Made by a program: the position numbers and the translations under genes. DNA of 46,321 nucleotides from IMG/VR virus record IMGVR_UViG_3300029258_001254, positions 1 to 46,321 of that record; one strand, given 5' to 3'. Shown here one piece after another: positions 3,702 through 34,347 of the stretch (positions are counted from its first letter, which is position 1; each line of letters opens with the position of its first letter). The notes beneath the pieces are model-generated. The model made no database searches and was not told where the DNA came from. It was given only the letters and a program-made list of their open reading frames with translations. This stretch comes from a virus.

Positions 3702-5719
3702 GGCAATCGCTCCGACTCGTTCACCTTCCATAGCTGATCCCGTGCCTCCAGGGTTCGCGGCTCGGCGTTGGCATCGACCACCGGCGCGACCGCGCACCGG
3801 CAGTTGATGTCCATCGATGCGATCCCGAACTCGCCGGGATAGGGCGCGGTCATGCCGTCGATCTCGAAGTCGTCGCGCAGCGGGATCGGCGGCTGGCCGC
3901 CGAGCTGTTCATGCTCCGGCCTTACCTTTTCGTCCGGGGTGTGTAGCCATTCCTTCGCTTCGACGATGCCGCTTTGCCCGTAGGCTTCGAACGACCCGAA
4001 CGAGCTGGAGCGGACCGACTCCGTCCGCGCGATCGTCTGCGCTCGGGTCTCGCCCATCCACGCGAATTCGTCGGTCAGCCGCTCGGCCAGCTCGCGCACG
4101 CCTTCGCCGCGTTGCATCCCCTCGACCAGGGTGATCCGGATCCGGATCCGACTCTCGAGGTTGATTCCCTCCATCCGGTCGGCGCCGAACTCCAGAAGGT
4201 GGCTGACCACCTTCGGGTTCCGCATATCGAAGCGGACCCCGACGTTCAGATCGCCCAGCACGCGATCGCCCCATGCCTGCAGCTCGTCGTTCCACACCGG
4301 CAGGGCTTCGTCGGCCAGCGTCTCCGGCCGCATCGATTCGAGGACGACCTGGATCCCGTTGGGGTCGATCGCCTTCGCCCGCGGCGCCTCCAGTTCCTTC
4401 GGCCGCGGCTGCGCCGGCAGCTCGCGAATGTTAGACGAGCCGGTGGCGTCGGGCTCGGGCGCCGTCACGGTCGTCAGGTTCAACGGCTGCAGGTGGACGT
4501 CGTCGCCCTCGCCGCGGTTCTCGAACTCCGCCAGCTCGCGCCAGTCGGCGCGCGTGAACATATACGGGGCGGCCTTCATCACCTCCAGGGCGAAGGTCCG
4601 ATCGGACGGGACTGGGCTGACGTAGTCCAGGATCAGCCGCCCGTCGTAGCGCGGTACTAGCTCCTCCTGGAGCTGTTCGCGGAACGGCTCCAGCCGCGGG
4701 ACCAGCACGGACGTCGCCATGATGTTCTCCGACTCGTGAGCCGTGGCGCGGTTCGAGCTGGTGACGATCCCGAGCTGTTCGGGCGGGACGCCGAACACGT
4801 TGATCACGGTGTCGCGCTCCGACTCGCGGAGTTGCTGCAACTCCATATCCGTGAATTTCTGCGTCAGCTCCTTCACGTCGATCTTGGTGTTGTGCCACCA
4901 CGATCGGTGCGCGCGTCCGAAGCCCTGGTGCTGGTTCTCGAATCGCTGTTTCGCCTCCTTCAGTTGCTCGCCGTCCAGACCTTCGATCGAGATCAGCAGC
5001 TCGGGCTTCGCGCGGTTCCGGAAGAACGTTTTGACGAACTGCGCGGCGTATTCGTCGGTCTCGATCTCGTCGGTCAGCGACTCCGCCGTGCCGGCGCCGC
5101 GGCCGTAGGGGTCGGCCGGGTCAGGGTCGCGGAACCAAATGACGTCGTCCTTCGGCAGCGTGAACCGCTGGCCGGCGATCTGGAGCTGGTAGACGCCGTC
5201 CTCCCCCACCGGCAGATCGGTCACCCACGACGGCGGTAGCGGCCAGAACTCCGACGGCACGCCCAGCGGGTTCATCCCCAGCGCCCAGAACGACTCGCCG
5301 ACGATGTCCCGATATAGCTGCGTCAGCAGCCGGCCGGCGCTGCCGGTCATGAAAGGGTTGGCGGTGTTCAGCAGGATCAGGAGCGGGTGGATCTCGATCT
5401 GCGTCACCTCGCCCGCTTGCTTCAGTCGCCGGATCTCCGCGTGGCGATCGTACGGGCCCATATCCTTCAGCGTCCCCGCGTCGCGGAAGCCGCGCTCCTC
5501 GTTCCCGACGGCGTAGAGCTGCCAGGACACGGCGGCGAATCGCTGGCTGATTTTCTTCGTCACCGCCTGAAGCCACGGGCTGACCCGGTACATTTGGATC
5601 AGCTCGGCCGTGTTGCGACGCGCGGCCGGTTGCATCGTGGTCATATGGATCGCCTGCTGCAGGCTTTCGTTCAGGTCCTTCCCCAGCAGCCAGGCGCCGA
5701 AACGCTGGATCACGTTCAT
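3611..5719 (-). CDS. Portal protein fused to a MuF/SPP1 gp7-type minor head domain
   Basis: 702 residues. I chose ATG 5719 because GGGAG lies eight bases upstream and the ATGA overlaps the previous stop. Residues 1 to about 430 are an HK97/SPP1-class portal, with YRVSPWLQAVTKKIS, DVIWFRDPDPADPYGRG and FGVPPEQLGI. Residues about 480-650 match phage MuF/head-morphogenesis domains: RIRITLVEGMQRGEGVRELA, ARTESVRSSSFGSFEAYGQ, then a W-x-H-x-P-D-x-x-V-R-x-E-H segment and DINCRCAV. The two activities are usually separate adjacent genes. The dodecameric portal forms the DNA channel, and the MuF part probably lies inside the prohead. Confidence 0.9.
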   Translation of the reverse strand: MNVIQRFGAWLLGKDLNESLQQAIHMTTMQPAARRNTAELIQMYRVSPWLQAVTKKISQRFAAVSWQLYAVGNEERGFRDAGTLKDMGPYDRHAEIRRLKQAGEVTQIEIHPLLILLNTANPFMTGSAGRLLTQLYRDIVGESFWALGMNPLGVPSEFWPLPPSWVTDLPVGEDGVYQLQIAGQRFTLPKDDVIWFRDPDPADPYGRGAGTAESLTDEIETDEYAAQFVKTFFRNRAKPELLISIEGLDGEQLKEAKQRFENQHQGFGRAHRSWWHNTKIDVKELTQKFTDMELQQLRESERDTVINVFGVPPEQLGIVTSSNRATAHESENIMATSVLVPRLEPFREQLQEELVPRYDGRLILDYVSPVPSDRTFALEVMKAAPYMFTRADWRELAEFENRGEGDDVHLQPLNLTTVTAPEPDATGSSNIRELPAQPRPKELEAPRAKAIDPNGIQVVLESMRPETLADEALPVWNDELQAWGDRVLGDLNVGVRFDMRNPKVVSHLLEFGADRMEGINLESRIRIRITLVEGMQRGEGVRELAERLTDEFAWMGETRAQTIARTESVRSSSFGSFEAYGQSGIVEAKEWLHTPDEKVRPEHEQLGGQPPIPLRDDFEIDGMTAPYPGEFGIASMDINCRCAVAPVVDANAEPRTLEARDQLWKVNESERLPWEASATEAFRRAFQRQAADALKALERVAT

Positions 5720-5988
5720 CGGATCAACTCCCATCCGAACAGGAAACACTCGTAGGCGACGGCCGCCACGGCGCCGCCGAAGATCGACGCCGGCCCGACC
5801 AGCACGGCGAGCACGACCAGGGCGGCGAGCGCGCGGGCCGGCCGGCGCCGTCCTCGAGGATTGCTTGCCGTCGCCTGCGGCGGCGCAGCCTTTGGCGGTT
5901 GGCTACTGCTGGCCGACGCGCCACCGCAGGCGGGGCAAATGAAGTCACCACACCGGGGACAGTTCACGGCTTCGGTGTCGTCGCTCAT
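5716..5988 (-). CDS. Small zinc-ribbon membrane protein
   Basis: 90 residues. The N-terminus has two CxxC pairs, CPRCGDFICPACGG (residues 10-23), a zinc ribbon. Then comes a Ser/Pro/Arg-rich linker and one or two hydrophobic segments in residues 49-85 (ALAALVVLAVLVGPASIF and following), so the protein is probably anchored in the membrane. ATG at 5988 has AAGGTG six bases upstream. It overlaps the next gene (portal) and the previous one by ATGA. Function unknown. Confidence 0.7.
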   Translation of the reverse strand: MSDDTEAVNCPRCGDFICPACGGASASSSQPPKAAPPQATASNPRGRRRPARALAALVVLAVLVGPASIFGGAVAAVAYECFLFGWELIR

Positions 5989-8155: not shown

Positions 8156-8619
8156 GGCGTGAACTCCCCGGGGATGATCGTCCGCGGCTCGCCGGTGATC
8201 AGGTCCGGGACGCGGTCCGTCGTCGCGAGCTGGTAGATCCCGCAGATCATCCCCACGCAACAGGTCTGCCTGTCGCCCGGCGCCGTGCCCACTAGGCGGC
8301 TGAAGGCGTCGTACGGTGCGGGTCGTCCCTCGCACGGGCACGGGTCGGCGGTCTCGCTGAAGCGCCCGCAGTCGGGGCAGACGAACAGCGCGCGGCCCGG
8401 GGCGAGCGGGTGGACCCCGTCCTCGAAGTGGATCTCCACGGGCTGGGCGATGTTGCCGCTGGTCGGCTCGCGCCATTCCACGAACTCGCCGCCAACCTGG
8501 TAGCCGTAGGTCGCCCACGCCTTGATCCAGTGTTCGATGTTGTCCTCCATCTTTATCGCCACGATCTTCGCGTGCGTGATCTTCGGCGGCGGGTCGATTG
8601 GGGCGGGAAGGGTGATCAT
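8152..8619 (-). CDS. Zinc-ribbon protein of the fibre cassette, unknown
   Basis: 155 residues from ATG 8619, with AAGGAG six bases upstream. The N-terminal half is neutral (MITLPAPIDPPPKITHAKI, HWIKAWATYGYQVGG). The middle has a metal-binding pattern, CPDCGRF...CPCEG near residues 80-95, and a later CCVGMIC. It is coupled by ATGA to the glycosyltransferase before it and by GTGA to the fibre-like gene after it. I do not recognise the family. Confidence 0.7.
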   Translation of the reverse strand: MITLPAPIDPPPKITHAKIVAIKMEDNIEHWIKAWATYGYQVGGEFVEWREPTSGNIAQPVEIHFEDGVHPLAPGRALFVCPDCGRFSETADPCPCEGRPAPYDAFSRLVGTAPGDRQTCCVGMICGIYQLATTDRVPDLITGEPRTIIPGEFTP

Positions 8620-9854
8620 GTTCGGCTCCTTCTGTTGGTCGCCTGGTGGTAGACGTCGACCGTGGCATCGGCCGCGGTCTGCCAGGAATAGTCGCGGGCC
8701 CGGCGCCGGCCGAGCTGTCGCAGCTCGTCGCGCTTCGCCGGGTCCTTCAGTTCGTCCAGCGCCGCAATGATCGCCGCTGGCGAGCGCGGCGGGATGATCA
8801 TGGCGTATTCGTCGCCGCCCTCCGGCGCCACGATCTCGCCCAGGCCGTCGACCTCCGTGGAGATCAGCGGGGCGCCCATGGCCATAGCTTCGAGCGCGAC
8901 GATCCCGAACGGCTCGTGAGTCGACGGCATGATCACCACGTCGGCGGCGGCGTACAGGTCGCGGAGCCGCTGGCCGTGCCGGAAGCCCAGCCACCGGAAC
9001 CGCTCGGGGTGTTCGCGCTCGGCCGCGCGTAGCCGCTGCGTCAGTTCCCACCCTTCGCGTTCTTCCTCGTTGTTCGCGTTCACCTCGCCGGCAGCCGCGA
9101 TCTGCCAGCCGGTGTCCGTGCTCTCCACGACCTCGAGGACGTGTTGGATCCCCTTCATCGTCGCGATCCGCCCGACGTACAGCGCGACGGGCCGGTCGCG
9201 GTCCAGCACGTTCGCAGCTCGCCCGCGGTCGCGGTCGCCGGCACCAGGGTTCCACTCGTCCAGGTCGATCCCGTTGGGGATCATCGTCACCGGGCGATCC
9301 GTCAGGAACGTCCGCCGCACGGTGTCGACGTAGGAGCCCGAGCACAAGATCAGATCGTCCACCTCGCAGACCAAGGCTCCCTCCTGGTTCATCATGTAGA
9401 GATCGGCCTCGCGCAGGCTGCCATAGTCGATCGCCGGGTTCTCCTGCTGCGCCAGCGCCGTCAGGCAAAGGTGCATCGTCCCGACCATCGGCACGCCCAG
9501 CGCGTCGCGCGCGGTCTTGGCAACCTGTAGGCTGTTCCACTCGTGAACGTGGACGAGATCCCAGCGGTGGCCTTCCGCGAACAGCCGTAGCAGCGTCCGA
9601 AGCATTTGGATGTCCAGCAGGGACAGGCACGCGAAGTCGGGGCGCCGCGGTTTCCAGCAGGCCAGCTTGTCGCTGTAGTGTTTTCGGAAGCCCAGGTAGT
9701 CGACCGACCCCTCGCGCTCGCCGTCGGTCAGTAGGTCGATCGCCACGTCGTCGCGCTTCGACATCGCCCGGTACAGCTCGCGGACGTGCATCCCCATACC
9801 GCCCAGGATGCGCTCCGGGTCCTCGTAGCAAATGGCCAGGACCTTCAGCGTCAT
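8616..9854 (-). CDS. GT4-family glycosyltransferase (GT-B fold)
   Basis: 412 residues, the normal length for the family. The N-terminus has the glycogen-synthase-like start MTLKVLAICYEDPERILGGMG with the Gly-Gly-x-x-x-H pattern of nucleotide-sugar enzymes. Further features are VHVHEWNS near residue 120, ALYVGRIATMKGIQ starting the C-terminal Rossmann domain, and the donor-binding motif HEPFGIVALEAMAMG (E-x7-E). It transfers a sugar from a nucleotide-sugar donor to an unknown acceptor, and the sequence does not identify either one. It is ATGA-coupled to a fibre-like paralogue before it and a zinc-ribbon protein after it. Glycosylation of virion proteins is therefore more likely than of host envelope or DNA, but this is inference. 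Confidence 0.9.
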   Translation of the reverse strand: MTLKVLAICYEDPERILGGMGMHVRELYRAMSKRDDVAIDLLTDGEREGSVDYLGFRKHYSDKLACWKPRRPDFACLSLLDIQMLRTLLRLFAEGHRWDLVHVHEWNSLQVAKTARDALGVPMVGTMHLCLTALAQQENPAIDYGSLREADLYMMNQEGALVCEVDDLILCSGSYVDTVRRTFLTDRPVTMIPNGIDLDEWNPGAGDRDRGRAANVLDRDRPVALYVGRIATMKGIQHVLEVVESTDTGWQIAAAGEVNANNEEEREGWELTQRLRAAEREHPERFRWLGFRHGQRLRDLYAAADVVIMPSTHEPFGIVALEAMAMGAPLISTEVDGLGEIVAPEGGDEYAMIIPPRSPAAIIAALDELKDPAKRDELRQLGRRRARDYSWQTAADATVDVYHQATNRRSRT

Positions 9855-15867: not shown

Positions 15868-17085
15868 TCACGACTTCCGCCGTCGACCCTTGGCCTTCGT
15901 CCGTCCTCGAGGACGCTTGGCCGTCGTCGCCCCCACGCGCTTCGCCTTCCCGCCGCTGACGTTTTGCCACCGCTCCACGATCACGTCGGCGAACTTCGGA
16001 TCCAGCTCCATCACGCGGCACGGTCGATCCAGTTGCTCGGCGGCGATCAGGGTCGAGCCCGATCCGCCGAACGGTTCGAACACGATCCCACCTGGCGCCG
16101 CGCTGTTCCGGATCCCGCGGGCCGGCAACTCGACCGGCTTTTGCGTGGGGTGGAGGTATTCGCGATCCCTGTCGACGGTCCACAGGTCCGATTGCTTTCG
16201 GTCGCTGTACCAATACGCGTCACCACCGCCCCGGCCCTTCCACCCGAAATAGATAAACTCGAACTGGCTGTGATAGTTCCGCCGCCGCAGCACGAAGGCA
16301 TCTTTGGCCCACACCAGGATCCGCGGCTGGAGCTGTAGATGGTGATCGAACAGCTTGGCGTACATTTCAAAATTCGTGGAGCCGCCGCAGAGGTAGAGCC
16401 GGGCGTTGTCGTCCAGCGCGTGATCGACGGCGACCGCGAACGAGATCGGGATCACCGCCTGCGTCAGGTCGCCGCTGATCGCGTTCTTCTTTGCGCCTCC
16501 GAAGATCACGCCGTAGGGGGGATCGGTGAACATCAGCGCGGCGCGTGACTTGCCCATCAGCTTCGCCACGTCCTCGCGCTTCGTGGAGTCGCCGCACAGC
16601 AGGACGTGACGCCCGAGCCGCCAGACGTCGCCGGGCTTCGTGGTCGCACGCTTCGGCAGCTCGGGCGCGTCGTCCTCGTCCACCTGCGAGTCCATCCCCG
16701 CGACGAACGCCACGAACTCGCGATCGCTCCAGCCCAGGCCGTCGATCACCTGCTGGTCCCCGATCCGCTTCAGGTCCTCGTAGACCCCACGGTCGTCCCA
16801 CTCGGCCAGTTCGGCGGATCGATTGTCGACCAGCCCGAGATCGCGCAGGTCGTCGGGCGTCAGGTCGTCGGCCGGCGTCACCTCGCACGACTCCCAACCG
16901 AGCTCACGCATCACCTGAAGCCGCCCGTTGCCGACGTGGACGACGTTGCCACGGACGATCAGGGGGAGCCGCTGGCCGAACCGCTCCAGCGAGTAGCGGA
17001 TCGCTGCCAGGTTCCGTTTCGTCCGCTTGCGCCGGTTGTTGGGGTCGAACACGAGATCGGCCACCTTCGCCTTCTTGATCTTCAT
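15868..17085 (-). CDS. ParB-like nuclease domain fused to a beta-class DNA adenine/cytosine-N4 methyltransferase
   Basis: 405 residues. Residues 1-130 match ParB/Sulfiredoxin-like domains: a VADLVFDPNNRR start, LIVRGNVVHVGNGRLQVMRE containing the GNGR motif (52-55), and LVDNRSAELAEWD. Residues 150-380 are an amino-methyltransferase: catalytic DPPYG (188-192), HPTQKPVELPARG, then the SAM-binding EPFGGSGST near 340. DPPY before FxGxG is the beta-class order. The tail is Lys/Arg-rich. It would methylate the exocyclic amino group of A or C, with the ParB part perhaps giving DNA contact. It lies next to the putative origin and small terminase. Confidence 0.9.
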   Translation of the reverse strand: MKIKKAKVADLVFDPNNRRKRTKRNLAAIRYSLERFGQRLPLIVRGNVVHVGNGRLQVMRELGWESCEVTPADDLTPDDLRDLGLVDNRSAELAEWDDRGVYEDLKRIGDQQVIDGLGWSDREFVAFVAGMDSQVDEDDAPELPKRATTKPGDVWRLGRHVLLCGDSTKREDVAKLMGKSRAALMFTDPPYGVIFGGAKKNAISGDLTQAVIPISFAVAVDHALDDNARLYLCGGSTNFEMYAKLFDHHLQLQPRILVWAKDAFVLRRRNYHSQFEFIYFGWKGRGGGDAYWYSDRKQSDLWTVDRDREYLHPTQKPVELPARGIRNSAAPGGIVFEPFGGSGSTLIAAEQLDRPCRVMELDPKFADVIVERWQNVSGGKAKRVGATTAKRPRGRTKAKGRRRKS

Positions 17086-25437: not shown

Positions 25438-26421
25438 CTACGCCGACAGGGCGGCGTGGCGGGCTTTGAACTCCGCGCGCGCGCGCGACAGTTCGTGACC
25501 CTTCAGGCTGCCACCCTTCAGCTTCGCGGCGACCTTCTCCAGTTCGGCATTCGACTTCGCCGATCCGATCGCCTTCAGCGCCTTCGCCAGCTCGGCGGAC
25601 GCCGCGGGCTCCTTCCCCTTCGCCCACTCCGCCAGCGCCTTCCCGGTCTCGATCGTGATCACCTCGCCAGACGGAAGCGCCGCGCGCTGGTCCTCGCGCG
25701 TGTACTTCGTGCCGTGGAAGCGGTGATCGTGATCGATCCACCCGTGGATCAGCAGCTCGAACAGGATGTCGTCCGATTGCTTTGGCGACAGCTCGCCCGA
25801 GCGGTGCCACTCCACCTTGCCCTTGTTCTCCGGGTTGGGTCCCTCGACCATCGGGTAGCGCGCCCGCATACAGACGATCACCAGGTCGATCGGTGTTTGC
25901 ATCAGGCGCAGCATGAAATGCTTGGCGTGGTCGATCTTCGGCTGCTGCCAGACGAGGACCCCCTTGCGCGCCCAGCGGAAGCGCGTGCCCTTGCACCCCG
26001 GGTTCCCGCAGACGTCCACGCGGTCGCCCTTGTCAGCCAGCCAGCCGCAGGCCAGGCACTCGGTTCGGCTGTTGCGGTCGGCCATGTCCAGGACGCCGCC
26101 CAGCCCTTCCCACTCGTGAGAGGCGGAATCGATGATCAGCGCCTTCGCACCGGACTTCTCCGCGAGCGCGATCGCCTCGCCGTAGGTCTGCGGGCTGAAG
26201 TTGTCCCGGATCGGGATCACCTCGTAGCCGCCCGGCAGCTCGTCGGCGAAAACTTCGCCGCGGCCCGACTCCGTCTCCACCATCACGATCTTCCCCTTGC
26301 CACCCACGAAGCCGCGGGCCAGCAGAAGGGCGGATTTGGTTTTGCCGCAGCCGCTCTCAGAGTAGAGCCCGATCAGCGGCTTCGCCTCCGACCGCTTGGC
26401 CGGTCTGATGGTGAGCGTCAT
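25438..26421 (-). CDS. Sak4-like RecA/RAD51-type ATPase (single-strand annealing or recombinase)
   Basis: 327 residues from ATG 26421 (ATGA overlap with the exonuclease). Walker A is SESGCGKT (21-28), followed by IVMVETESGRGE. Walker B is ALIIDSAS (Asp98). An unusual zinc insertion holds Cys122, Cys125, Cys138 and Cys143. After that comes LMQTPIDLVIVCMRARYPM, then a helical C-terminus. The RecA core without an N-terminal domain fits Sak4 proteins of phages. Together with the exonuclease it forms a two-gene recombination module. Confidence 0.85.
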   Translation of the reverse strand: MTLTIRPAKRSEAKPLIGLYSESGCGKTKSALLLARGFVGGKGKIVMVETESGRGEVFADELPGGYEVIPIRDNFSPQTYGEAIALAEKSGAKALIIDSASHEWEGLGGVLDMADRNSRTECLACGWLADKGDRVDVCGNPGCKGTRFRWARKGVLVWQQPKIDHAKHFMLRLMQTPIDLVIVCMRARYPMVEGPNPENKGKVEWHRSGELSPKQSDDILFELLIHGWIDHDHRFHGTKYTREDQRAALPSGEVITIETGKALAEWAKGKEPAASAELAKALKAIGSAKSNAELEKVAAKLKGGSLKGHELSRARAEFKARHAALSA

Positions 26422-27323
26422 TGTGCGGCCCCCTGGATCGCGGTGCGCGCCTCGAAGTCGAAGCGGGCGTAGTTGGGGATCTCCGCCCAGGCGATCTCGT
26501 AGCCATAGCGCGGCCACTCGTCGCGCTCCAGGCACGTCCGCCACCGCTCCTTCGCCAGCTCGATCTTCTGCGTGGCGAACTCGATCGCGGAGTTGCCGGC
26601 GCCGATGGAGTTGACCGCGTAGGGCTCGTCGGTCTCCTGGGCCAGGAACACGAATTCCCAATCCTCGCCGGTCACCGCCTTCAGCCCGCGCAGGATCAGC
26701 GCCGCCTTGATGTCGTAGCCGCCAGGGATGGCGCTGGTTTTCCACCAGCTCACGGCGTCGGCGTTCGTCGCCGTTTTGTATTCCCGGACCTGGCGGATCT
26801 CCGGCAGGAGATAGTCGGGCCGCACGCGGAACCAGACGCCATACTCCTCCCAAACAATCGTGCGCTCGGGCTCGCCGTTCACGATGCCGGCGGCCTCGCG
26901 GTAATAGGCTAGCTCCGCCATCATATCGTCCAGCTTCGCCCGCTCCTTCGCAAGGATCGGGATCTTGCCGGCGGCCTCGATCTCCGCGCGCGCCGCCTTC
27001 GCGTCGTTCGTGCGGAAGTCGTCGGCCGGCACGAGCGCAGCGCCGGCCGCCGGCTTTTTACCCTTCTCCCGCTGCGGGATCATCACGGTCACCACGTCCT
27101 CGCCGCCGAGCCAGCAGGCGTGCGCGGCGCTGCCGAAGTCGGCCGCCCGCGACGGCTTGCGCGTGCGACCGCCGAGCCGCGGGTGGTCCCGGTAGGCGTG
27201 CGTCGGCGTGCGCTCGACCAGCAGTTGGACGATCCGCGTCGACAGCGACGGCGCGGGGCAAGGGTCGGCGATGTAGTCGCCGATCGGGAAGTCGGCATAG
27301 ATGCCGGTGGTCAGGGTTGTCAT
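26418..27323 (-). CDS. RecE/DUF3799-like PD-(D/E)xK exonuclease
   Basis: 301 residues from ATG 27323. The N-terminus has YIADPCPAPSLSTRIVQLL (the S-x-S motif) and RAADFGSAAHACWLG with His68. The catalytic core is RVRPDYLL (Asp170) and REYKTATNAD (Glu181-x-Lys183), then a helical region with a Gln/Tyr-containing motif typical of 5'-3' exonucleases. It would resect double-stranded ends to load the recombinase, as RecE does for RecT. Residues were judged by eye. Confidence 0.85.
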   Translation of the reverse strand: MTTLTTGIYADFPIGDYIADPCPAPSLSTRIVQLLVERTPTHAYRDHPRLGGRTRKPSRAADFGSAAHACWLGGEDVVTVMIPQREKGKKPAAGAALVPADDFRTNDAKAARAEIEAAGKIPILAKERAKLDDMMAELAYYREAAGIVNGEPERTIVWEEYGVWFRVRPDYLLPEIRQVREYKTATNADAVSWWKTSAIPGGYDIKAALILRGLKAVTGEDWEFVFLAQETDEPYAVNSIGAGNSAIEFATQKIELAKERWRTCLERDEWPRYGYEIAWAEIPNYARFDFEARTAIQGAAQ

Positions 27324-27520
27324 TGGCTTCGCTTTCTGCCCGCAGCGCGGGCGGTGTGGTGTGTTTGGATCTCGATCTCGATCGACCAGGTTGACGCGCA
27401 CGGGCAGTCGCGCAGCTCGCGCAGCCCGCCGACGAAGTCCAGCATGTAGCCGACCAGTCGGAGCGCGCGCCACGCCTTCAGCGTGTACTCGCGCCCGCAG
27501 GAACAGCGCGCGACAATCAC
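27320..27520 (-). CDS. Small zinc-binding early protein, unknown
   Basis: 66 residues from GTG 27520 (GTGA overlap), starting VIVARCSCGREYTLKAWRAL, with a second Cys pair CPCAST. A likely zinc site. ATGA-coupled to the exonuclease. Unknown. Confidence 0.6.
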   Translation of the reverse strand: MIVARCSCGREYTLKAWRALRLVGYMLDFVGGLRELRDCPCASTWSIEIEIQTHHTARAAGRKRSQ

Positions 27521-27996
27521 GACGCCACCGCCTTCAGGGTGTGGAAGCTGAACCCCTCCGGCGGGTGGTCGGCGTAGCTGTAGCCGCCCGCGTGGAGCGT
27601 CGCCGCCATCGTGGTCACGTCGCACAGCTCGCCGTGCCACACGACCGCGCCCTTGGTGGTGACGCGCAGGATCTTCCCGTAGACGATCCGCCGCCCGCGG
27701 TGGATAAGGTACATCCCCGGCGCGGGCTTCACGCCCTCGAGGACCGCTTCGCCCTGATAGTCGCGCCAGTCGGCGCCGCCGGTCGCGCGCCTCGCCGCGT
27801 CCTGGTCGGCCCAGCGCACGCGCTTCAGCGTGCGCAGCGCCGACCACCGGCCGCCGCCGCCGGCCAGTTCCAGCCAGACCTTGCCGCGGTAGCTGCGCGA
27901 GCGCGCGCGGTAGATCACGATAGCGAGTCGCCGGAGTTGGCGATCGCCGACTTGTTCATCGACCCACGCGAAGGCGGGGAGCTGTGGGGCCTTCAC
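27517..27996 (-). CDS. Early protein, unknown
   Basis: 159 residues from GTG 27996 (GTGA overlap). A basic, Trp-rich protein: VKAPQLPAFAWVDEQVGD, RARSRSYRGKVWLELAGG and GMYLIHRGRRIVYGKILRV. The pattern suggests a beta barrel of unknown family, possibly nucleic-acid binding because of the basic strands. No catalytic motif seen. Confidence 0.65.
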   Translation of the reverse strand: MKAPQLPAFAWVDEQVGDRQLRRLAIVIYRARSRSYRGKVWLELAGGGGRWSALRTLKRVRWADQDAARRATGGADWRDYQGEAVLEGVKPAPGMYLIHRGRRIVYGKILRVTTKGAVVWHGELCDVTTMAATLHAGGYSYADHPPEGFSFHTLKAVAS

Positions 27997-28241
27997 TGTT
28001 GCCCGCCCTTGGCCCCGGGCATCACGCCCCAGACCTTGTCGAAACAGATCTCCGCGATTGCGTCGAAGCTGTCCAGCTTCCCATCGAAGGTGTAGAGGGT
28101 GTTGCGCTTCCGGTGCCCGTCGCGAATGGTCGACCCGGCGCCGTACCACTCGGCTAGAACGGCCGCGGCCTCCGGTTCGTGACACGCTGCCTGGTACTTC
28201 CCTTGGGGGTCGTAGACTTTGAATCTAGGCGCGGCCGCCAT
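27993..28241 (-). CDS. Small early protein, unknown
   Basis: 82 residues from ATG 28241, with GGAGG six bases upstream. It begins MAAAPRFKVYDPQGKYQAAC and is a compact alpha/beta protein: AAAVLAEWYGAGSTIRDGHR, then LYTFDGKLDSFDAIAEIC. The fold cannot be assigned. The start lies inside the end of the previous gene (17-base overlap). Confidence 0.65.
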   Translation of the reverse strand: MAAAPRFKVYDPQGKYQAACHEPEAAAVLAEWYGAGSTIRDGHRKRNTLYTFDGKLDSFDAIAEICFDKVWGVMPGAKGGQQ

Positions 28242-28680
28242 GATGTCCTCCGTTGTTGTGGGTGTGGGGATCGCGAACGTAGCTTGCCGCCCCGACAATG
28301 CGAAACAGAATCGGCGCGTTCGTGGAGTGTTCAACCTTGCCGGCGTAGACCAGATCCCAGAGCGCGAGATCGGGCGCCTTCCCGAACACGGTGGAAGCGT
28401 TCGCGTCGGCCAGCTCGACCGCGATCCGGTTCAGCGTGCGCGGCACGCCGTCGGCCAGGTGGGCGATGATCCGATCGCGCCACGCGGCGCGCGTGCTGAT
28501 CTTGAAGTCGCGCCGCCACGCGGTCTCCTTCCCGCGCCGAGCTTCGCGCGGCTGGCGCTCGGGGTCGTCGGCAGATCGGATCAGGTGGGTGTACGCGGCG
28601 AGGCCGGCGCGGTCGGCCTTCACGTCCTCGCCGGTCAGCCACTCGGGCAACGGCTCTATGATGGTGTGTTCGTCTGCCAT
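28225..28680 (-). CDS. Putative winged-helix DNA-binding protein
   Basis: 151 residues from ATG 28680 (TGATG overlap). Residues 60-130 look like a winged helix: WRDRIIAHLADGVPRTLNRI, AVELADANASTVFGK, ALWDLVYAGKVEHSTNAPIL. The N-terminal part is charged. It could regulate early genes or bind DNA in replication. It ends His/Gly-rich. Family not identified. Confidence 0.6.
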   Translation of the reverse strand: MADEHTIIEPLPEWLTGEDVKADRAGLAAYTHLIRSADDPERQPREARRGKETAWRRDFKISTRAAWRDRIIAHLADGVPRTLNRIAVELADANASTVFGKAPDLALWDLVYAGKVEHSTNAPILFRIVGAASYVRDPHTHNNGGHHGGRA

Positions 28681-28916
28681 CAGTCGCCCACCTTCCGGAG
28701 CTGGACGCCGTGGCCAAGGTCGATCGGGCCGGCGCCCAGGCGCTTCACGCAGACCTGGCAGAGCGCGTGCCCTTGTTCGGACAGGACGACGTTGCGCCCG
28801 CGGTTCAGGAGGACGTCGACCATTCGCTCCCCGCCGTGCGTGTAGCGGCTCAGGTCGATCGCCCGGTTGTCGCAGACGAAGCAGGGGTGCTTGGCGTTGT
28901 GGGTTTCGTCGTTCAC
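28680..28916 (-). CDS. Small zinc-binding protein coupled to C5 methyltransferase
   Basis: 78 residues from GTG 28916 (GTGA overlap). It has CFVCDNRAIDLSRYTHGGER then LCQVCVKRLG: C-x2-C...C-x2-C, a zinc ribbon with a Tyr-Thr-His segment between. Translationally coupled to the C5-methyltransferase. Function unknown. Confidence 0.65.
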   Translation of the reverse strand: MNDETHNAKHPCFVCDNRAIDLSRYTHGGERMVDVLLNRGRNVVLSEQGHALCQVCVKRLGAGPIDLGHGVQLRKVGD

Positions 28917-29821
28917 GCTGCCACCTCCGCGATCAGCCGGCGCGCGACCGGCGGACAGACGGCGTTGCCCAGCCCGCGGATCTTGTCCGTGCGCGTGGCG
29001 TCGTCCGGCCAGGTGTAGTTGTCGGGGAAGCCCATGGCGCGGGCGTTCTCGCGGACGGTCAGCGGCCGATACCGGCCGCGCCCAGCGTCGATCACCGCCC
29101 ATTGGTCGCCGGTGGTGATGGTGCGGATCGGGTCAGACAGCGGGATCCCCTTGTGCCCGGTGACGTGCTGAACCAGGCAGCGCGGCCCGTGCCGCTCGAT
29201 CGCCGCGTCGATCCGCTTGCGCGCGTTCCCGGTCGCCTGGCCGATCGGCCGCCACCGGCCGTCGGTCCAGTCGATGCACGGGCCGAAGGCGGGCTCGGTC
29301 GCGTCCGCCTCGAACGTGAGCTCACGCGGCGCGCGTTGGCCGACGACGAACAGCCGCCGCCGACGCTGCGGCACGCCGAAGTGGCTGGCCGTCAGGACGT
29401 GTTCGGTCAGCGTGTAGCCCAGCCGCTCCAGCGCCTCGCGCCAGACGGGGTAGAGCCGCCACCGGCGGAAGTCGGGGACGTTCTCCACGATGATCGCGGC
29501 GGGCTCCGTCACGTCGGCGCAGTCGACCACGGCCCAGGCGGTCGCGCGCAGGGCGTCGTGGTAGAGCCGGCGACGCGGCTGGCTGGCCTGGCTGTGACCC
29601 TGACACGCGGGCGACGCGAGGAGGAGATCGTAGGCCGGCAGCGCCGTCCAATCGGCCTGCCGGAGATCCTGGCAGACGTGCCGCGCCCGCGGGTGGTTCG
29701 CCGCGTGCGCCTGGACGGCGAGCGGCCAATGGTTGCCGGCCCACACGACATCGAGCCCGGCTTGCTCGGCGCCCAGGCTGAAGCCTCCCCACCCTGCGAA
29801 AAGATCGATCGCGCGCATCAT
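28913..29821 (-). CDS. DNA C5-cytosine methyltransferase
   Basis: 302 residues. Motif I is IDLFAGWGGFSLGAEQAG, motif IV is SPACQGHS with nucleophile Cys73, motif VI is IIVENV (110-115), motif VIII PQRRRRLFVV, motif IX-X RPLTVRENARAMGFPDNY and GLGNAVCPPVA. The usual Pro-Pro-Cys is Pro-Ala-Cys, a variant also known in phage enzymes, and the key Cys is intact. It transfers methyl from SAM to C5 of cytosine. Target recognition would lie between residues 165 and 235. The start may be 29821 or 29818, which only drops one Met. Confidence 0.92.
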   Translation of the reverse strand: MMRAIDLFAGWGGFSLGAEQAGLDVVWAGNHWPLAVQAHAANHPRARHVCQDLRQADWTALPAYDLLLASPACQGHSQASQPRRRLYHDALRATAWAVVDCADVTEPAAIIVENVPDFRRWRLYPVWREALERLGYTLTEHVLTASHFGVPQRRRRLFVVGQRAPRELTFEADATEPAFGPCIDWTDGRWRPIGQATGNARKRIDAAIERHGPRCLVQHVTGHKGIPLSDPIRTITTGDQWAVIDAGRGRYRPLTVRENARAMGFPDNYTWPDDATRTDKIRGLGNAVCPPVARRLIAEVAA

Positions 29822-30888
29822 GCCGCCACCGCCTTCCCGTCGAAGTCGTCCTCGAGGGCGGCGTCGTCCTCGACCAGCTCCGGATCGAACCAGCCGGCCG
29901 CCATCGACTCGGCCAGCAGCCGGCGGCCTTCGGCGATGAAGTGACCCTGCACGGTGCGGAACTTCACCTCGGCCGCGTTACCCTCCAGGTCGGGGCGGGC
30001 GGCCAGCAGCTCCAGCCGGCGGCGCGTCAGGTCGCGCGGGCCGCCGTTCGGCCCGTTGCGCAGGCCGACAAGGGCGGTGATCCGCACGCTGTCGCAGGTC
30101 ACGTCGGCGGCCCAGCGCGGGATCGAGCCGCGGACCTTGTCGAAGTCGGGCGAGTAGGGCCCAACCCCCAGCAGGTGGAAGCGGATCGCCAGCTCGTCCA
30201 CGTCGCGATCCCAGAGCAGATCGTCGCAATACTCCGCGAGCTGCGCGGCCGGCATGGCGCCCTTCTGCGACGGGATCCCCCGGATGAAGTCGACGCCCGG
30301 CAGCAGCTTCCGCACGGCGACGTCGAAGGCGATCATCGGCATCGGGCCGCGTTGCATCGGCACGATCACGTTGACCCGGTGGTCGCGTTGCATCGCGGCG
30401 ATCCGGTCGGCGTAACGGCGCAGACGGTTCAGCGTCTCCACCTGGTCGCCCACCTTGTCGGGCGCCACGACGTAGAGCTGGGTGCGAAGCGACGCGGCCA
30501 GCCGCTCGTAGACGGCGAGCCGCTGATCCCAATCGGCGTCGCTGATCGGCTTCACGTCGACCCACGACCAGGCCGGCGCGTCGGGGAACGGCAGGGTGCC
30601 GTTGCCGGCGCAGGTCCCCGCCTTACACTTCGCGCCGCGCCCGCAGACGTGCGGCCGGTTGAAGGCGACCTCGCCGAAGGCGCCGGAGTCGACAAACACG
30701 CGCATCGGGCCGCCCGCGTACAGCTCCAGCTCGCGCAGGGCGTCGCCCGACTTGTCGATCGCGTCGACTGCGATCCCGACGTCGTAGCCCGACAGGGCGA
30801 GCCCACGGATCTCGCCCGCGTGGTTCGACCCGCTGACGAAGTAGCCCTCGTGGGCTTCGTGGGGGAAGGTGTGGGGGTTTCCGGTCAT
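29818..30888 (-). CDS. DpdA-like protein (tRNA-guanine transglycosylase fold, possible 7-deazaguanine DNA insertion)
   Basis: 356 residues from ATG 30888. Motifs in TGT order: VFVDSGAFGEV (DSGAF 67-71), VAPDKVGDQVETL (142-153), VIVPMQRG (174-181), FIRGIPSQKG, FHLLGVG (237-243) and DVTCDSVRI with Asp266 as candidate nucleophile. These resemble the DpdA family, which exchanges guanine for preQ0-type bases in DNA and includes phage members. A Cys-rich insert (CGRGAKCKAGTC, 82-93) could bind zinc. No folE, queC, queD or queE genes are visible, so preQ0 would have to come from the host. It overlaps the C5-methyltransferase by ATGA. Seen: motifs and coupling. Inferred: DNA rather than tRNA substrate. 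Confidence 0.65.
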   Translation of the reverse strand: MTGNPHTFPHEAHEGYFVSGSNHAGEIRGLALSGYDVGIAVDAIDKSGDALRELELYAGGPMRVFVDSGAFGEVAFNRPHVCGRGAKCKAGTCAGNGTLPFPDAPAWSWVDVKPISDADWDQRLAVYERLAASLRTQLYVVAPDKVGDQVETLNRLRRYADRIAAMQRDHRVNVIVPMQRGPMPMIAFDVAVRKLLPGVDFIRGIPSQKGAMPAAQLAEYCDDLLWDRDVDELAIRFHLLGVGPYSPDFDKVRGSIPRWAADVTCDSVRITALVGLRNGPNGGPRDLTRRRLELLAARPDLEGNAAEVKFRTVQGHFIAEGRRLLAESMAAGWFDPELVEDDAALEDDFDGKAVAA

Positions 30889-30932
30889 GCTGTCCTCCGG
30901 CCGCTGTTGTGGGGTGCGGCTCCACTGACGTT

Positions 30933-30953
30933 AGGGACGCCGTCGGCGTCCCT
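30933..30953. terminator. Perfect hairpin before the DpdA-like gene
   Basis: AGGGACGCC (30933-30941) pairs with GGCGTCCCT (30945-30953) around a 3-base loop, inside the 99-base gap between two early genes. No T-run follows on either strand. It may be a partial terminator, an mRNA processing site or an attenuator controlling the DpdA-like and methyltransferase genes. Confidence 0.4.
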
Positions 30954-30987
30954 CGCGTCATGGCGCTTGTTCGATCTCGCTGCGGTC

Positions 30988-31740
30988 CTACTTCGTGACG
31001 TGGTAGCCGTCACCACCGGCGCGGACGTGGATGCTCACCAGCTCGCGGCCTTCGTCGCGGCGGATCGTACAGGCGGCGCTGGCGAAGCCATTGACGCCGC
31101 GGGCGCTCCAGCCCTGCGCTTCGGCGTAGCCCTCGGCGTGCGAAGCGCAGCGGTCGACGTCGCTGACGCTGATCGCGATGCTGTGCTCGCCGGCCACGCC
31201 GCCGCTGAAGTGGATCCGGCCGTCCCGGATAAACACGTAGAGCTGGCGCGGGCGGCTGTCGATCATCTCGCCGCAGTTCCGACAGGTGTGCCCGTTCTCG
31301 CCGATCTCGTCGCAATGCCGGCACGGCCAGGACTTCGGCAGCATCCCGGGGTTCGCGGCCGGGACGGCGTTGCCGGGGCGCAGGTGGCGATCGCGCAGGG
31401 CGCGGAGGACGCGGCCCATCCCGTCGGCGCTGACGGACCAATCGGGGATCCCGCCGTCCAGGTTCAGGCCGGTCCGCGCAAGGTCGCCGCTCGACCACTG
31501 GCCGCGACCGTCCAGGATCTCCTCGTTGTAGCGCGTGACGAACTGCCCGATCGTGTCGAAGCCGCCGCCCTTGTGCCGCTCGTCGTAGAACTCCACGAGG
31601 GCGCCGTCGCCGTCGTTCGTCAGGCAGTCGTTCCGACCGTACCGCTGGCCGGGCTCGATCACACGGACGGCGAAGGTCACGCCGCGGGTGGTGCCGGGGA
31701 TGCTGGTGATCAGGGCGGGGGTGTTGCTGGTGGTGGTCAT
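30988..31740 (-). CDS. Early zinc-ribbon protein, unknown
   Basis: 250 residues from ATG 31740, with GGAG about eight bases upstream. The first 120 residues are alpha/beta (GTTRGVTFAVRVIEPGQRYG, NDGDGALVEFYDERH). Near residues 140-160 a zinc ribbon reads CRHCDEIGENGHTCRNCGE. The C-terminus resembles a beta domain with RQLYVFIRDGRIHFSGG. Similar conserved early proteins occur in GC-rich phages without known role. It lies directly downstream of a TATAAT box. Confidence 0.7.
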   Translation of the reverse strand: MTTTSNTPALITSIPGTTRGVTFAVRVIEPGQRYGRNDCLTNDGDGALVEFYDERHKGGGFDTIGQFVTRYNEEILDGRGQWSSGDLARTGLNLDGGIPDWSVSADGMGRVLRALRDRHLRPGNAVPAANPGMLPKSWPCRHCDEIGENGHTCRNCGEMIDSRPRQLYVFIRDGRIHFSGGVAGEHSIAISVSDVDRCASHAEGYAEAQGWSARGVNGFASAACTIRRDEGRELVSIHVRAGGDGYHVTK

Positions 31741-31830
31741 GCTGTTCTCCGTTGTTGGGGTGGGGTTTCTCACAGCCCAAGTAAGCCATAGCCAGGGGAG
31801 GACCACAACAAAAAAACGCATCCCCGGCCC

Positions 31831-31836
31831 ATTATA
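31831..31836 (-). promoter_or_regulatory. Candidate -10 box upstream of the early zinc-ribbon gene
   Basis: The minus strand reads TATAAT here, a perfect -10 in an A/T-poor genome, with a start near 31824 and a leader of about 85 bases. No good -35 box lies 16-18 bases upstream, so it may be an activator-dependent promoter, perhaps of the Fis-type regulator encoded just upstream, or chance. An imperfect hairpin AAAGGGCG...CGTCCCTTT (about 31845-31877) lies just before it and could end the regulator transcript. Confidence 0.4.
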
Positions 31837-31881
31837 ACCCCGCGGAAAGGGACGGCTTATCGCCCTTTTGTCGTTTCTGGG

Positions 31882-32100
31882 CTACGCCGTGGCCTTCGGG
31901 CGGCCAGATCCGGGGGACCGGCGGGCATACCACTCCGCGAGCCCGTGACGGCGGATCAATGCCTGGAGCGTCGACTTCGCGACGCCCAGGCTGCGCCTGG
32001 CTTTCCCGATCATCCCGTCCGCCTCGACCAGGTGGCGGCGCACCAGCTCGCGCTCCTCCTTTGCGTGGCGGGCTCGCAGTCGCTTCAACGTCTCCGACAT
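31882..32100 (-). CDS. Fis-type helix-turn-helix regulator
   Basis: 72 residues from ATG 32100, with GGAGG upstream. I prefer it over an earlier in-frame start that would lie within the promoter. The core resembles the Fis/NtrC C-terminal HTH: LVEADGMIGKARRSLGVAKS then TLQALIRRHGLAEWYARR, and a basic tail. It is the first gene of the early operon, so it probably acts as an autoregulator or early-late switch. No sensor or AAA domain is present. Confidence 0.75.
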   Translation of the reverse strand: MSETLKRLRARHAKEERELVRRHLVEADGMIGKARRSLGVAKSTLQALIRRHGLAEWYARRSPGSGRPKATA

Positions 32101-32118
32101 GGTGACCTCCAGGCGCCG

Positions 32119-32147
32119 ATTGTACGACACGCCGGCCCGTTTGTCAC
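32119..32147 (-). promoter_or_regulatory. Strong sigma70-like promoter of the early operon
   Basis: On the minus strand GTGACA (32147-32142, five of six) is followed by exactly 17 bases and TACAAT (32124-32119, five of six). Transcription would start near 32112, only about 12 bases before the ATG of the Fis-type gene, with the ribosome-binding site in the leader. It is placed where the one-directional early gene block begins. Confidence 0.7.
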
Positions 32148-32422
32148 CGGCGAAAGGGCCGGCGGGCGCGAAACCGGCAAGGGCAAGGGTTGTGCCACGC
32201 GGGCCGGTTTTGGCTACTTTGGGCCTAAGCGACCCGAACCAGGCCGGGCTCCTGGCCCATTGTGCAAATATGACTCGGCGCGCAGACCCTTGCGCCTGTA
32301 GGGATAGAATCGTGCCAACCGCCCGAAGCGATACGGGCCCCCTTGAGGGCGCTTAATGGGCCGGACCTAGGTACTTACTCCGGCCACCTTCGGCGCGGGC
32401 GTCTGGCGCGATTCTGACGCTA

Positions 32423-32448
32423 CCCCCCGTAGAAGGGGGCGTACCCCC
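32423..32448. repeat. Alternating C5/G5/C5 hairpin
   Basis: On the plus strand CCCCCC (32423-32428), GGGGG (32435-32439) and CCCCC (32444-32448) can form either of two mutually exclusive hairpins. The minus strand gives GGGGG-TACG-CCCCC, a very stable short stem. It could be a terminator without T-run, or a small RNA switch. Confidence 0.5.
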
Positions 32449-32539
32449 GGATTAAACGCCTTGTGTGGGGGTGAATACATTGAAAAGACGGCCGGTGTCC
32501 TGTTTTGCTTCACGCACAGCGTCAAAACATTCAAGCGAT

Positions 32540-32626
32540 CGCGCGTGTTCGTTCGCGCGAATGTAACGCGCAAACCCGCGACAGGAGCGGACCGGAGCGA
32601 TCTACTTGCGCGAACGCGAACGCGCG
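32540..32626. promoter_or_regulatory. Pair of operator-like sites in inverted orientation
   Basis: Site A (32540-32558) reads CGCGCGT-N4-GTTCGCGC on the plus strand. Site B (32626-32608) has the same arms and the same 4-base spacer on the minus strand. Their centres are about 68 bases apart. A related partial copy is near 32643. The equal spacing suggests a bound protein, perhaps the Fis-type regulator. No direct evidence for the binder. Confidence 0.5.
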
Positions 32627-32715
32627 TATTTCGTCCCTAAGCGCGTGCGCGAATCGTTAAGCGGGGTGGGTGGGTGTAGGTGGGGCCGGCCGGCCACCAC
32701 AACCGGCCGACCCCA

Positions 32716-32745
32716 GGCGGGCTGGCAAGCGACAGGCAGCCCGCC
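32716..32745. terminator. Hairpin after the last lysis gene
   Basis: GGCGGGCTG (32716-32724) pairs perfectly with CAGCCCGCC (32737-32745), immediately after the stop at 32748 in the minus direction. A second stem of GGCCGG/CCGGCC type follows near 32684-32710. Likely end of the late transcript. The T-run is absent, so it may need Rho. Confidence 0.5.
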
Positions 32746-32747
32746 GA

Positions 32748-33215
32748 TCACAACCCGGCGGCGATCCCGAGCACGATCCCGGCGACGACTCCGACGGCGA
32801 CGCCGCCCGCGGTCCACGCGATCACTTCCCACCAGGCGAAGCGGCCGGCGGCGTCTGCCGCTTGCTCCGCCATCCGGGTTCGGCAGACGGCTTCGGCGTT
32901 CCTGGTAGCGGCCTTCAGGTCAGCGGTTCCGATGTCGGCGAGCCCGCGCAGCTTCACGCCGCACAGCCCGGGGATCTGGTCGAGGTAGATCAGGCGGTCG
33001 CGGACGTGGTCCGCCAGCGCCTTCGGCAGCAGCGTCCCCGCGGGTACGTCGATCGCCGTGAGCTCGGGGTCGGCGGGGTGGAGCCGGCCGGCCGGGACGG
33101 GGACCTGTGCCGGCAAGTCGGCGGGCCACTCCAGGGCGGGCGGCGGCTCCAGGGGGTCAGTCGCCGCCGCCGGTGTGGCGGTCCAGATAATCGCCCAGAT
33201 CACCGCTCGTATCAT
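32748..33215 (-). CDS. Putative spanin-like or secreted membrane protein
   Basis: 155 residues from ATG 33215, which lies inside the end of the previous gene (59-base overlap in another frame). It has a signal-peptide-like start (MIRAVIWAIIWTATPAAA), a Pro-rich periplasmic part, a helical region with two Cys, and a C-terminal membrane segment (about 130-155, ending IVLGIAAGL). Overlap with an Rz-like gene recalls Rz/Rz1, but no lipobox Cys follows the signal. A unimolecular spanin-like or other envelope protein is possible. Last gene of the late block. Confidence 0.55.
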   Translation of the reverse strand: MIRAVIWAIIWTATPAAATDPLEPPPALEWPADLPAQVPVPAGRLHPADPELTAIDVPAGTLLPKALADHVRDRLIYLDQIPGLCGVKLRGLADIGTADLKAATRNAEAVCRTRMAEQAADAAGRFAWWEVIAWTAGGVAVGVVAGIVLGIAAGL

Positions 33216-33450
33216 CGCGTTCCGCCTTCGCTTTTTCGCTAGCCTCTACAAAGCGCCGTATGGCCTTTTTACGGGCCGCCGTGGTCTCCGCCTCGCCCAA
33301 TTCCCGCGCGTCGTCCTGGGCGTCCCTGGCGGCCTCCACGTCGCCCTCAGAGCGCCCCCGGGACCGGCCGGCCAGGAACAGCCCGACCCCGGCCGCGATG
33401 GCAGCCAGGACGGTCAGCAGGGCGCCCCACCACCGCTTCAGGAACGTCAC
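33157..33450 (-). CDS. Rz-like inner-membrane spanin candidate
   Basis: 97 residues from GTG 33450 (GTGA overlap with the holin-like gene). One N-terminal membrane helix (LLTVLAAIAAGVGLFLAG) followed by a charged coiled coil (RSEGDVEAARDAQDDARELG), the design of i-spanins. The order amidase, holin-like, Rz-like agrees with a lysis cassette of a phage with a Gram-negative host. The sequence alone is not specific. Confidence 0.6.
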   Translation of the reverse strand: MTFLKRWWGALLTVLAAIAAGVGLFLAGRSRGRSEGDVEAARDAQDDARELGEAETTAARKKAIRRFVEASEKAKAERDDTSGDLGDYLDRHTGGGD

Positions 33451-33764
33451 CGCCGGCCCAGCGCCTTCGTCGCGACGTCCACGCCCAGGAACGCCCCGAT
33501 CGTCGCCCACAACTCCCACGGGACGGACCCCCACCGGCTGGGGATCTGGCCGCCGGCCTTCGCGATCTCCACCGCCTGGTCGTCGGTCAGCCACGTCCCG
33601 CCGAACAGCAGCAGCCCGAGCGCGACCAGCACGAACACGGATCCCCAGACCTTGTGGTGAGAGACCACCCGCTCGGGCGTCCCATTTGTGCCCTTGTCGC
33701 GCCCGAACATCGCCCCGAAGAATCGCCAGCCGCGGCCCGGCTTGCTTGCTTGGTCCTCCGCCAT
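33447..33764 (-). CDS. Holin-like membrane protein
   Basis: 105 residues from ATG 33764, with GGAGG six bases upstream in the end of the amidase gene. Two hydrophobic segments, VWGSVFVLVALGLLLFGG and ATIGAFLGVDVATKAL, with a charged N-terminus (MAEDQASKPGRGWRFFG). Size, topology and adjacency to the endolysin support a holin that times lysis. Holins have poor sequence conservation, so this is by context. Confidence 0.65.
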   Translation of the reverse strand: MAEDQASKPGRGWRFFGAMFGRDKGTNGTPERVVSHHKVWGSVFVLVALGLLLFGGTWLTDDQAVEIAKAGGQIPSRWGSVPWELWATIGAFLGVDVATKALGRR

Positions 33765-33765
33765 C

Positions 33766-34347
33766 TCAGCCTCCGAAAATTTTGGCGCCCCGCACGCAGG
33801 CGGCGCGCAGTCCATTCACGATCTCGTCCAGCGCGTAAGGCTGGCCCAGGTATTCGACGTCGCCCGGGTTCGTCAGGTAACCGCATTCGACCAGCGCGCA
33901 CGGCTTTTCGCGGAACGCGCCGAGCACGACGCGCGGGCGCTGCAGCCAATCGTCCTCGGGGCCGGGCTCGTCGGTCGCGGCGATCACCTTCGAGGACATC
34001 AGTTCGAGCGGCATCGCCGCCACGGCGGCCAGGCAGATCCGCCGGGTCCGATCGTTGCCCGGCCAATGGTAGCCTTCGGCGTTCGCCTGCGTCGTGTTCC
34101 GCGCGGCGTTGAAGTGGATCGACACGACGAACGCAGCCTGCGCCACCGCCTCGTAGCGCGCGCGCCAACTCGGATCGAAGTCGGCCCGCCGGGTCAGCAC
34201 GGGGACGATCGGCGTCCCCATCAAGGCGGCCTCGAGCCGGAGCGCGCAGGCCAGGTTCAAGTCCTTCTCCACGAAGCCGCCGTACTCGGCGCCGTGGTCC
34301 GCGGCCCCGTGACCGGGATCGATCCCGACGACGACGCCGGCCGTCAC
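33766..34347 (-). CDS. N-acetylmuramoyl-L-alanine amidase (Amidase_3), endolysin
   Basis: 193 residues from GTG 34347 (GTGA overlap). Zinc ligands and catalytic residue: GIDPGHG (His13), GGFVEKDL (Glu27), VSIHFNA (His78) and VECGYLTNPGD (Glu153). It cleaves the amide bond between muramic acid and the stem peptide. There is no wall-binding domain and no signal peptide, so it would be released by the holin. The length equals the catalytic domain alone, as in many phages of Gram-negative hosts. Confidence 0.92.
   Translation of the reverse strand: MTAGVVVGIDPGHGAADHGAEYGGFVEKDLNLACALRLEAALMGTPIVPVLTRRADFDPSWRARYEAVAQAAFVVSIHFNAARNTTQANAEGYHWPGNDRTRRICLAAVAAMPLELMSSKVIAATDEPGPEDDWLQRPRVVLGAFREKPCALVECGYLTNPGDVEYLGQPYALDEIVNGLRAACVRGAKIFGG

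Follow-up and report, generated by a model that had tools for sequence, protein, structure and literature searches.

A five-gene block in a virus record

A block of five genes lies on the minus strand (28225-31740) of IMGVR_UViG_3300029258_001254, a single virus record of 46,321 bases considered here over its whole length (positions 1 to 46,321) and called the window. In order, the genes encode a zinc-ribbon protein (ZR1), a DpdA-like protein, a C5-cytosine DNA methyltransferase (C5-MTase), a small protein with CxxC pairs (ZR2) and the product of a fifth gene (Table 1). The DpdA-like protein belongs to an undescribed family of the tRNA-guanine transglycosylase (TGT)/DpdA type, and its association with the C5-MTase is the main subject of this analysis. 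Family scans also find portal, major head, terminase, tape-measure, helicase and primase genes in the window.

The block genes, their lengths, their single terminal stops and their junctions were re-read from the sequence. A first-pass annotation had described a four-gene block, for which the gene coordinates and both 4-base overlaps (DpdA-like/C5-MTase and C5-MTase/ZR2) were right, whereas the fifth gene had been missed and ZR1 falls outside the overlapping chain. Indeed, the last four genes, from the DpdA-like to the fifth, are chained via ATGA, GTGA and TGATG overlaps, the last of these placing the start of the fifth gene inside the ZR2 stop codon with a single common base at 28680. ZR1 is separated from the downstream DpdA-like gene by 99 nucleotides and its start is preceded by its own ribosome-binding-site-like GGAG, so that its membership in the chain is not established. 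A scan of 26000-34000 for sigma-70-like promoters gave a sole match at 32147-32119, against a chance expectation of 0.4. Similar leaders (CCCCA..ACAAC..GGAGNACANCATG) accompany the gene starts at 31740, 30888 and 28241 and could serve as a shared signal for translation or expression.

Table 1. Genes and features of the block in the window
Feature	Position	Strand	Basis
ZR1, 250 amino acids, C-terminal zinc ribbon C-x2-C-x9-C-x2-C	30988-31740	-	sequence reading
DpdA-like (TGT-fold) protein, 356 amino acids, predicted DNA guanine transglycosylase	29818-30888	-	AlphaFold2 model, fold match, residue conservation, hhalign
Cys-rich loop of the DpdA-like protein, H80-x-C82-x5-C88-x4-C93, possible metal site	30610-30651	-	sequence reading
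ATGA stop/start overlap, DpdA-like to C5-MTase, 4 bases	29818-29821	-	sequence reading
C5-cytosine DNA methyltransferase, 302 amino acids	28913-29821	-	PF00145 E 1.8e-47; phrog_116 (DNA methyltransferase) E 1.1e-73; dcm TIGR00675
GTGA stop/start overlap, C5-MTase to ZR2, 4 bases	28913-28916	-	sequence reading
ZR2, 78 amino acids, GTG start, two CxxC pairs, orphan	28680-28916	-	sequence reading
Fifth gene, 151 amino acids	28225-28680	-	sequence reading

The DpdA-like protein and its family

The DpdA-like protein of the window matches no named family in Pfam, PHROGs and NCBIfam scans, the only matches being an unnamed PHROG (E 0.0057) and a sub-threshold Pfam family. It has no tblastn match among 50,697 phage records, the 9g group included, and neither the single-sequence viral scan nor the PDB sequence searches returned a relative. 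Relatives surfaced only after a viral scan with the window C5-MTase, which gave 48 loci, led to one of them, L008, that encodes a DpdA-like relative (L-numbers are labels of the loci or records holding relatives), and after alignments replaced single-sequence queries. Alignment-based searches then gave 57 viral loci and 8 genome loci; the viral figure was reached after 14 loci (copies, same-contig repeats and the window itself) were removed by eye. Alignment A3 and the tree have 51 rows, 50 plus the window, as seven of the 57 loci (L069, L071, L088, L096, L102, L117 and L118) were omitted (domain cut, split or near-duplicate). Record-level counts of C5-MTase, Mom, PAPS-reductase, QueC and DUF6884 cover 50 records, namely 49 viral records and the window, with the 8 genome loci excluded. 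Literature searches turned up no title or abstract dealing with this family or describing natural C5-MTase/DpdA fusions, which does not establish their absence in print.

Four residues, D67 (DSGAF), D144 (PDxVG), H238 (HLLG) and D266 (CDS), are identical in all 51 rows of A3, and Q179 and G181 in 50 of them. D67 belonged to the pattern of the relative-finding scan; the five others did not. The two catalytic aspartates and the substrate-binding aspartate that define the TGT/DpdA superfamily are thus found as D67, D144 and D266, which we take, without residue-by-residue computation, to correspond to D102, D156 and D280 of the Z. mobilis TGT.

An AlphaFold2 model built with A3 reaches a predicted local distance difference test score (pLDDT) of 86 and a predicted template modelling score of 0.85. 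When the Foldseek candidates were re-aligned with VIA-align, from which the DpdA fold match stems, the first was 7ui4, the DNA preQ0 insertase DpdA (Z 14.5, root-mean-square deviation 3.4 over 194 residues), followed by archaeosine and queuine TGTs at Z 12-13. A TIM barrel of the TGT type is indicated, as the 50 VIA-align matches listed are all DpdA or TGT entries (Z 12.3-14.5). Among viral structure models, the top match is a polyvalent-type protein with 26% identity.

With the bacterial DpdA of Dpd systems, the window protein thus shares the best fold match, but only 16% identity over the 194 aligned residues of 7ui4, and the DpdC-like DUF6884, the sole other Dpd island gene sought, is absent from the window. 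With the phage DpdA of the Enterobacteria phage 9g group (PMC6884629), it shares a phage-borne location and the TGT-type motif order DSGAF ... D-x-[IV]-G ... H-x2-G ... DS. It differs by the lack of a tblastn match there, and its relatives often form part of large polypeptides that also contain MTase, Mom, PAPS-reductase-like or DUF6884 domains. An hhalign comparison of the family with nine known phage DpdA-type sequences (alignment A4) gave a probability of 93.7 and E 2e-7, over 89 columns only. The profile phrog_887 ('queuine tRNA-ribosyltransferase') matches 10 of the 51 family members (best 9.9e-8), the window protein not being among them.

The genomic context of some relatives links the family to 7-deazaguanine chemistry. 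One phage record with a G+C content of 42% (L089:3841-6774) contains five overlapping genes for PTPS (QueD), QueC, GTP cyclohydrolase I (FolE), radical SAM (QueE) and then the family member, a preQ0 pathway with its likely insertase at the end, which makes this member the one with the firmest tie to preQ0; the 9g group is thereby matched by one relative in an operon with four preQ0 genes. QueC is found in 2 of the 50 family-bearing records. DUF6884 stands in the same reading frame as the DpdA-like domain in 4 of the 50 (L058, L069, L079 and L088) and in none of 48 records (the window and 47 records with MTase relatives). The DUF6884 stretch of L069 weakly matches PF03883 (E 8e-4, under cut-off), and DUF6884 resembles the family of DpdC, a PF03883 protein described as acting on dPreQ0 (PMC12839542).

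These links bear on the choice of substrate. The protein could instead be a transglycosylase acting on tRNA, or another RNA, of the host or phage during infection, with an unrelated MTase as neighbour, and in the fold comparison the tRNA TGTs do have scores not far below that of DpdA. This alternative appears improbable, however, as the top fold match is a DNA enzyme, the family is fused or adjacent to DNA-modifying domains (C5-MTase and Mom) and the DUF6884 fusion recalls an enzyme of dPreQ0. The first-pass designation 'DpdA-like' is thus borne out by the fold, the active-site residues, the preQ0 operon of a relative and the fusion to a DpdC-like domain, and the protein is most likely a DNA 7-deazaguanine transglycosylase using a host-made base.

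The Cys-rich loop of the window protein (H80, C82, C88 and C93) occurs in no other of the 51 rows, and model confidence is low there. Loops of similar length without those cysteines are found in L054, L058, L077, L079 and L111.

Methyltransferases and other domains around the family

Seen from the DpdA-like side, C5-MTases recur. PF00145 is present in 15 of the 50 family-bearing records, and in 7 of these 15 the C5-MTase lies within 2.5 kb of the DpdA-like domain, whereas 1.9 would be expected from uniform placement (P 0.001). As a separate gene, the MTase is located downstream (window, L069 and L100), upstream (L052) or divergently (L008). It also belongs to the same polypeptide as the DpdA-like domain, N-terminally in L087 and L111, C-terminally in L076 and, partial, in L093. 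A quick tree requires 8 changes to account for the 8 pair-bearing rows, at least 3 of them forced by well-supported branches, and these rows are no more clustered than in shuffles. As members near a C5-MTase are scattered in this way, pairings come and go, and the pair seems to have been assembled, or lost, several times over instead of being inherited as a single cassette.

Such scatter would also suit two real DNA-modification genes that are neighbours by gene traffic only, as collecting accessory genes, each working alone, and so would the count from the MTase side, since among the 48 viral records that carry relatives of the MTase only L008 has a DpdA-like gene anywhere, the other 47 lacking one. 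This explanation is nevertheless the less likely one, because the pair distances are shorter than uniform placement gives, the four same-polypeptide cases have differing domain orders and the pair shares a 4-base stop/start overlap in the window. The first-pass proposal of a G-modifying and a C-modifying enzyme acting as a pair therefore stands in part: it is supported by the recurrence of C5-MTases beside or fused with the family in distant relatives, but non-conservation of the gene pair, which the proposal itself had named as evidence to the contrary, is what is seen from the MTase side, though not from the DpdA side.

The window C5-MTase carries, besides Pfam DNA_methylase, the motifs DLFAG, SPAC (catalytic Cys; residue 70), ENV, QRRRR and GNAV in order, presumably motifs I, IV, VI, VIII and X. 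It thus has all the catalytic motifs of phage C5-MTases (phrog_116) but is chained to a DpdA-like gene, which is not the case in 47 of the 48 viral records with relatives. It is matched by 503 phage records, the two best at 43-46% identity, and is only 24-28% identical, in aligned parts, to the MTases of L076, L052 and L111. Transfer of a group larger than methyl, as by CmoX with carboxy-S-adenosylmethionine, is conceivable in that CmoX is a phage C5-MTase homologue (PMC12783734), but it is very improbable here: in that report, an SPPC motif and Arg350 served to select CmoX candidates, whereas the window enzyme has SPAC, and general family scans, with no search aimed at CmoA, named no scanned window gene CmoA. 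An identity as a CmoX carboxymethyltransferase was accordingly set aside on the SPPC motif. Elsewhere in the window, a ParB-like plus DNA methyltransferase gene (15868-17085; phrog_498, E 1.4e-104) represents a further modification enzyme, and a glycosyltransferase gene of the structural region (8616-9854; phrog_2170, E 1.7e-15) encodes an enzyme whose substrate could be the virion or modified bases.

Other domains accompany the family. Mom (PF25680) adjoins the MTase in L008 (E 4.9e-26), and one frame of 1178 residues (L087:4546-8082) combines a C5-MTase (52-427), a DpdA-like domain and a Mom-like stretch (1004-1090); judged by its domains, this polypeptide could alter C, G and A. The Mom matches inside the L087 and L080 polypeptides are under the Pfam cut-off. 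With the L051 domain, a distant Mom-like stretch was detected in L077, L079, L080, L081, L087 and L111; no Mom match is present in the window. PAPS-reductase-like domains are found in 12 of the 50 records. In L052:2443-5852, PAPS-reductase-like, C5-MTase and DpdA-like genes are consecutive, and the MTase has an N-terminal SymE-like stretch (PF08845, E 1.4e-8).

In several relatives, the DpdA-like domain is nested within long frames of polyvalent type with InPase, LPD1 or LPD22 domains (L051:2589-8315, L111:361-4965, L076:1940-11356 and L093:3-8825). In L050, it lies beside a frame with a ddrB-ParB domain, and some relatives adjoin frames with ART-PolyVal-like domains. Several relatives thus resemble polyvalent proteins (PMC5512222) in combining many disparate domains in a polypeptide or in standing next to such a frame, unlike the window member, a stand-alone gene for a 356-residue protein with one domain. 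A word search of the main text of that paper finds none of 'TGT', 'queuine', 'Mom' and 'PAPS'.

ZR1, ZR2 and the fifth gene were sought as recurring partners of the pair and none was found to be one. ZR2 has no relatives in homology searches and its zinc-finger Pfam matches are weak and below cut-off; of 47 checkable relatives, one (L045) has a small two-CxxC protein immediately after the MTase. Residues 1-117 of ZR1 match 16 phage records (tblastn, best E 2e-13), and phages with this N-terminal half infect Roseobacter-group bacteria and Streptomyces; a single-sequence structure model of ZR1 was uninformative (pLDDT 33). The zinc-ribbon proteins are thus not conserved partners of the DpdA-like/C5-MTase pair, and their earlier casting as accessory factors is not borne out. 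The fifth gene has a distant relative at L009:5996-6307 (tblastn E 8e-11), directly after the L009 MTase (5001-5894), and a phmmer match (E 4e-15) in L091, to a long frame that overlaps the DpdA-like reading frame there.

Proposed function and significance

The block is probably a phage DNA-protection cassette, in which the DpdA-like protein puts a 7-deazaguanine into DNA and the C5-MTase methylates cytosines. Several points weigh against this interpretation. Foldseek's own PDB order puts aldolases and epimerases, general TIM barrels, first; the protein resembles known phage DpdA only weakly in sequence; and DNA and tRNA as substrates are not directly separated by these results. It was the pair that led to the window and L008, and without both the proximity weakens to 5 of 13 records versus 1.7 expected (P 0.017). 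No C5-MTase is present in 35 of the 50 DpdA-like records, many of which are fragments, and the MTase-side count is unfavourable as well. Finally, the window scans gave no queC or queD/PTPS match, so that the base would have to be host-made, through the queuosine pathway. The fusions and the preQ0 operon were weighed above the non-conservation on the MTase side because they are independent of a single lineage.

Most family members would rely on a host-made base, and phages with dpdA alone are known, most of whose hosts make the precursor; in the same report, DpdA is essential for the modified base, which protects from restriction (PMC6884629).

In the proposed mechanism, the DpdA-like protein would cleave the glycosidic bond of guanine in phage DNA, D266 attacking the sugar as nucleophile while guanine leaves. 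A 7-deazaguanine base, most likely preQ0 or preQ1 from the host queuosine pathway, would then enter with D67 as acid/base. These roles of D266 and D67 are assumed by analogy with TGT, not computed. The layout of the genes, the family membership, the predicted fold, the conserved residues, the recurring pairing and the missing QueC and QueD matches are observations of this analysis, whereas enzymatic activity, the identity of the base, DNA instead of tRNA as the substrate and the protective function are inferred. The C5-MTase, translated from the same overlapping chain, would methylate cytosines in its target sequence, and two different altered bases may shield the DNA from more kinds of host nuclease than one of them would. 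DNA of phage 9g, which contains deoxyarchaeosine (dG+), is reported as still cut by about 29% of more than 200 restriction enzymes, and was given added 5-methylcytosine by methyltransferases in vitro, a G-plus-C double modification (PMC5567051). A combination of G and C modifications is therefore reasonable, since dG+ DNA remains partly cuttable and accepts 5-methylcytosine. DpdA alongside a gene for an adenine MTase has been recorded in one phage (PMC8306585).

Guanine exchange of the DpdA type is already known in phages. The present family, in contrast, was missing, as far as the searches reached, from named families and from a large collection of isolated phages, and it recurs fused or adjacent to enzymes for other bases. 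Taken jointly, the data suggest, as a tentative reading, an undescribed family of phage DNA guanine transglycosylases repeatedly combined with C5-MTases, and sometimes with Mom acyltransferase domains, into multi-base modules, of which the window would be the separated-gene form. Within polyvalent proteins, which are thought to enter with the DNA, the DpdA-like domain could modify incoming DNA before phage gene expression. If natural phages double-modify their DNA, combined base protection would be directly testable, and the fusions, if this is true, would offer compact enzymes with which to produce DNA carrying two or three kinds of modification.

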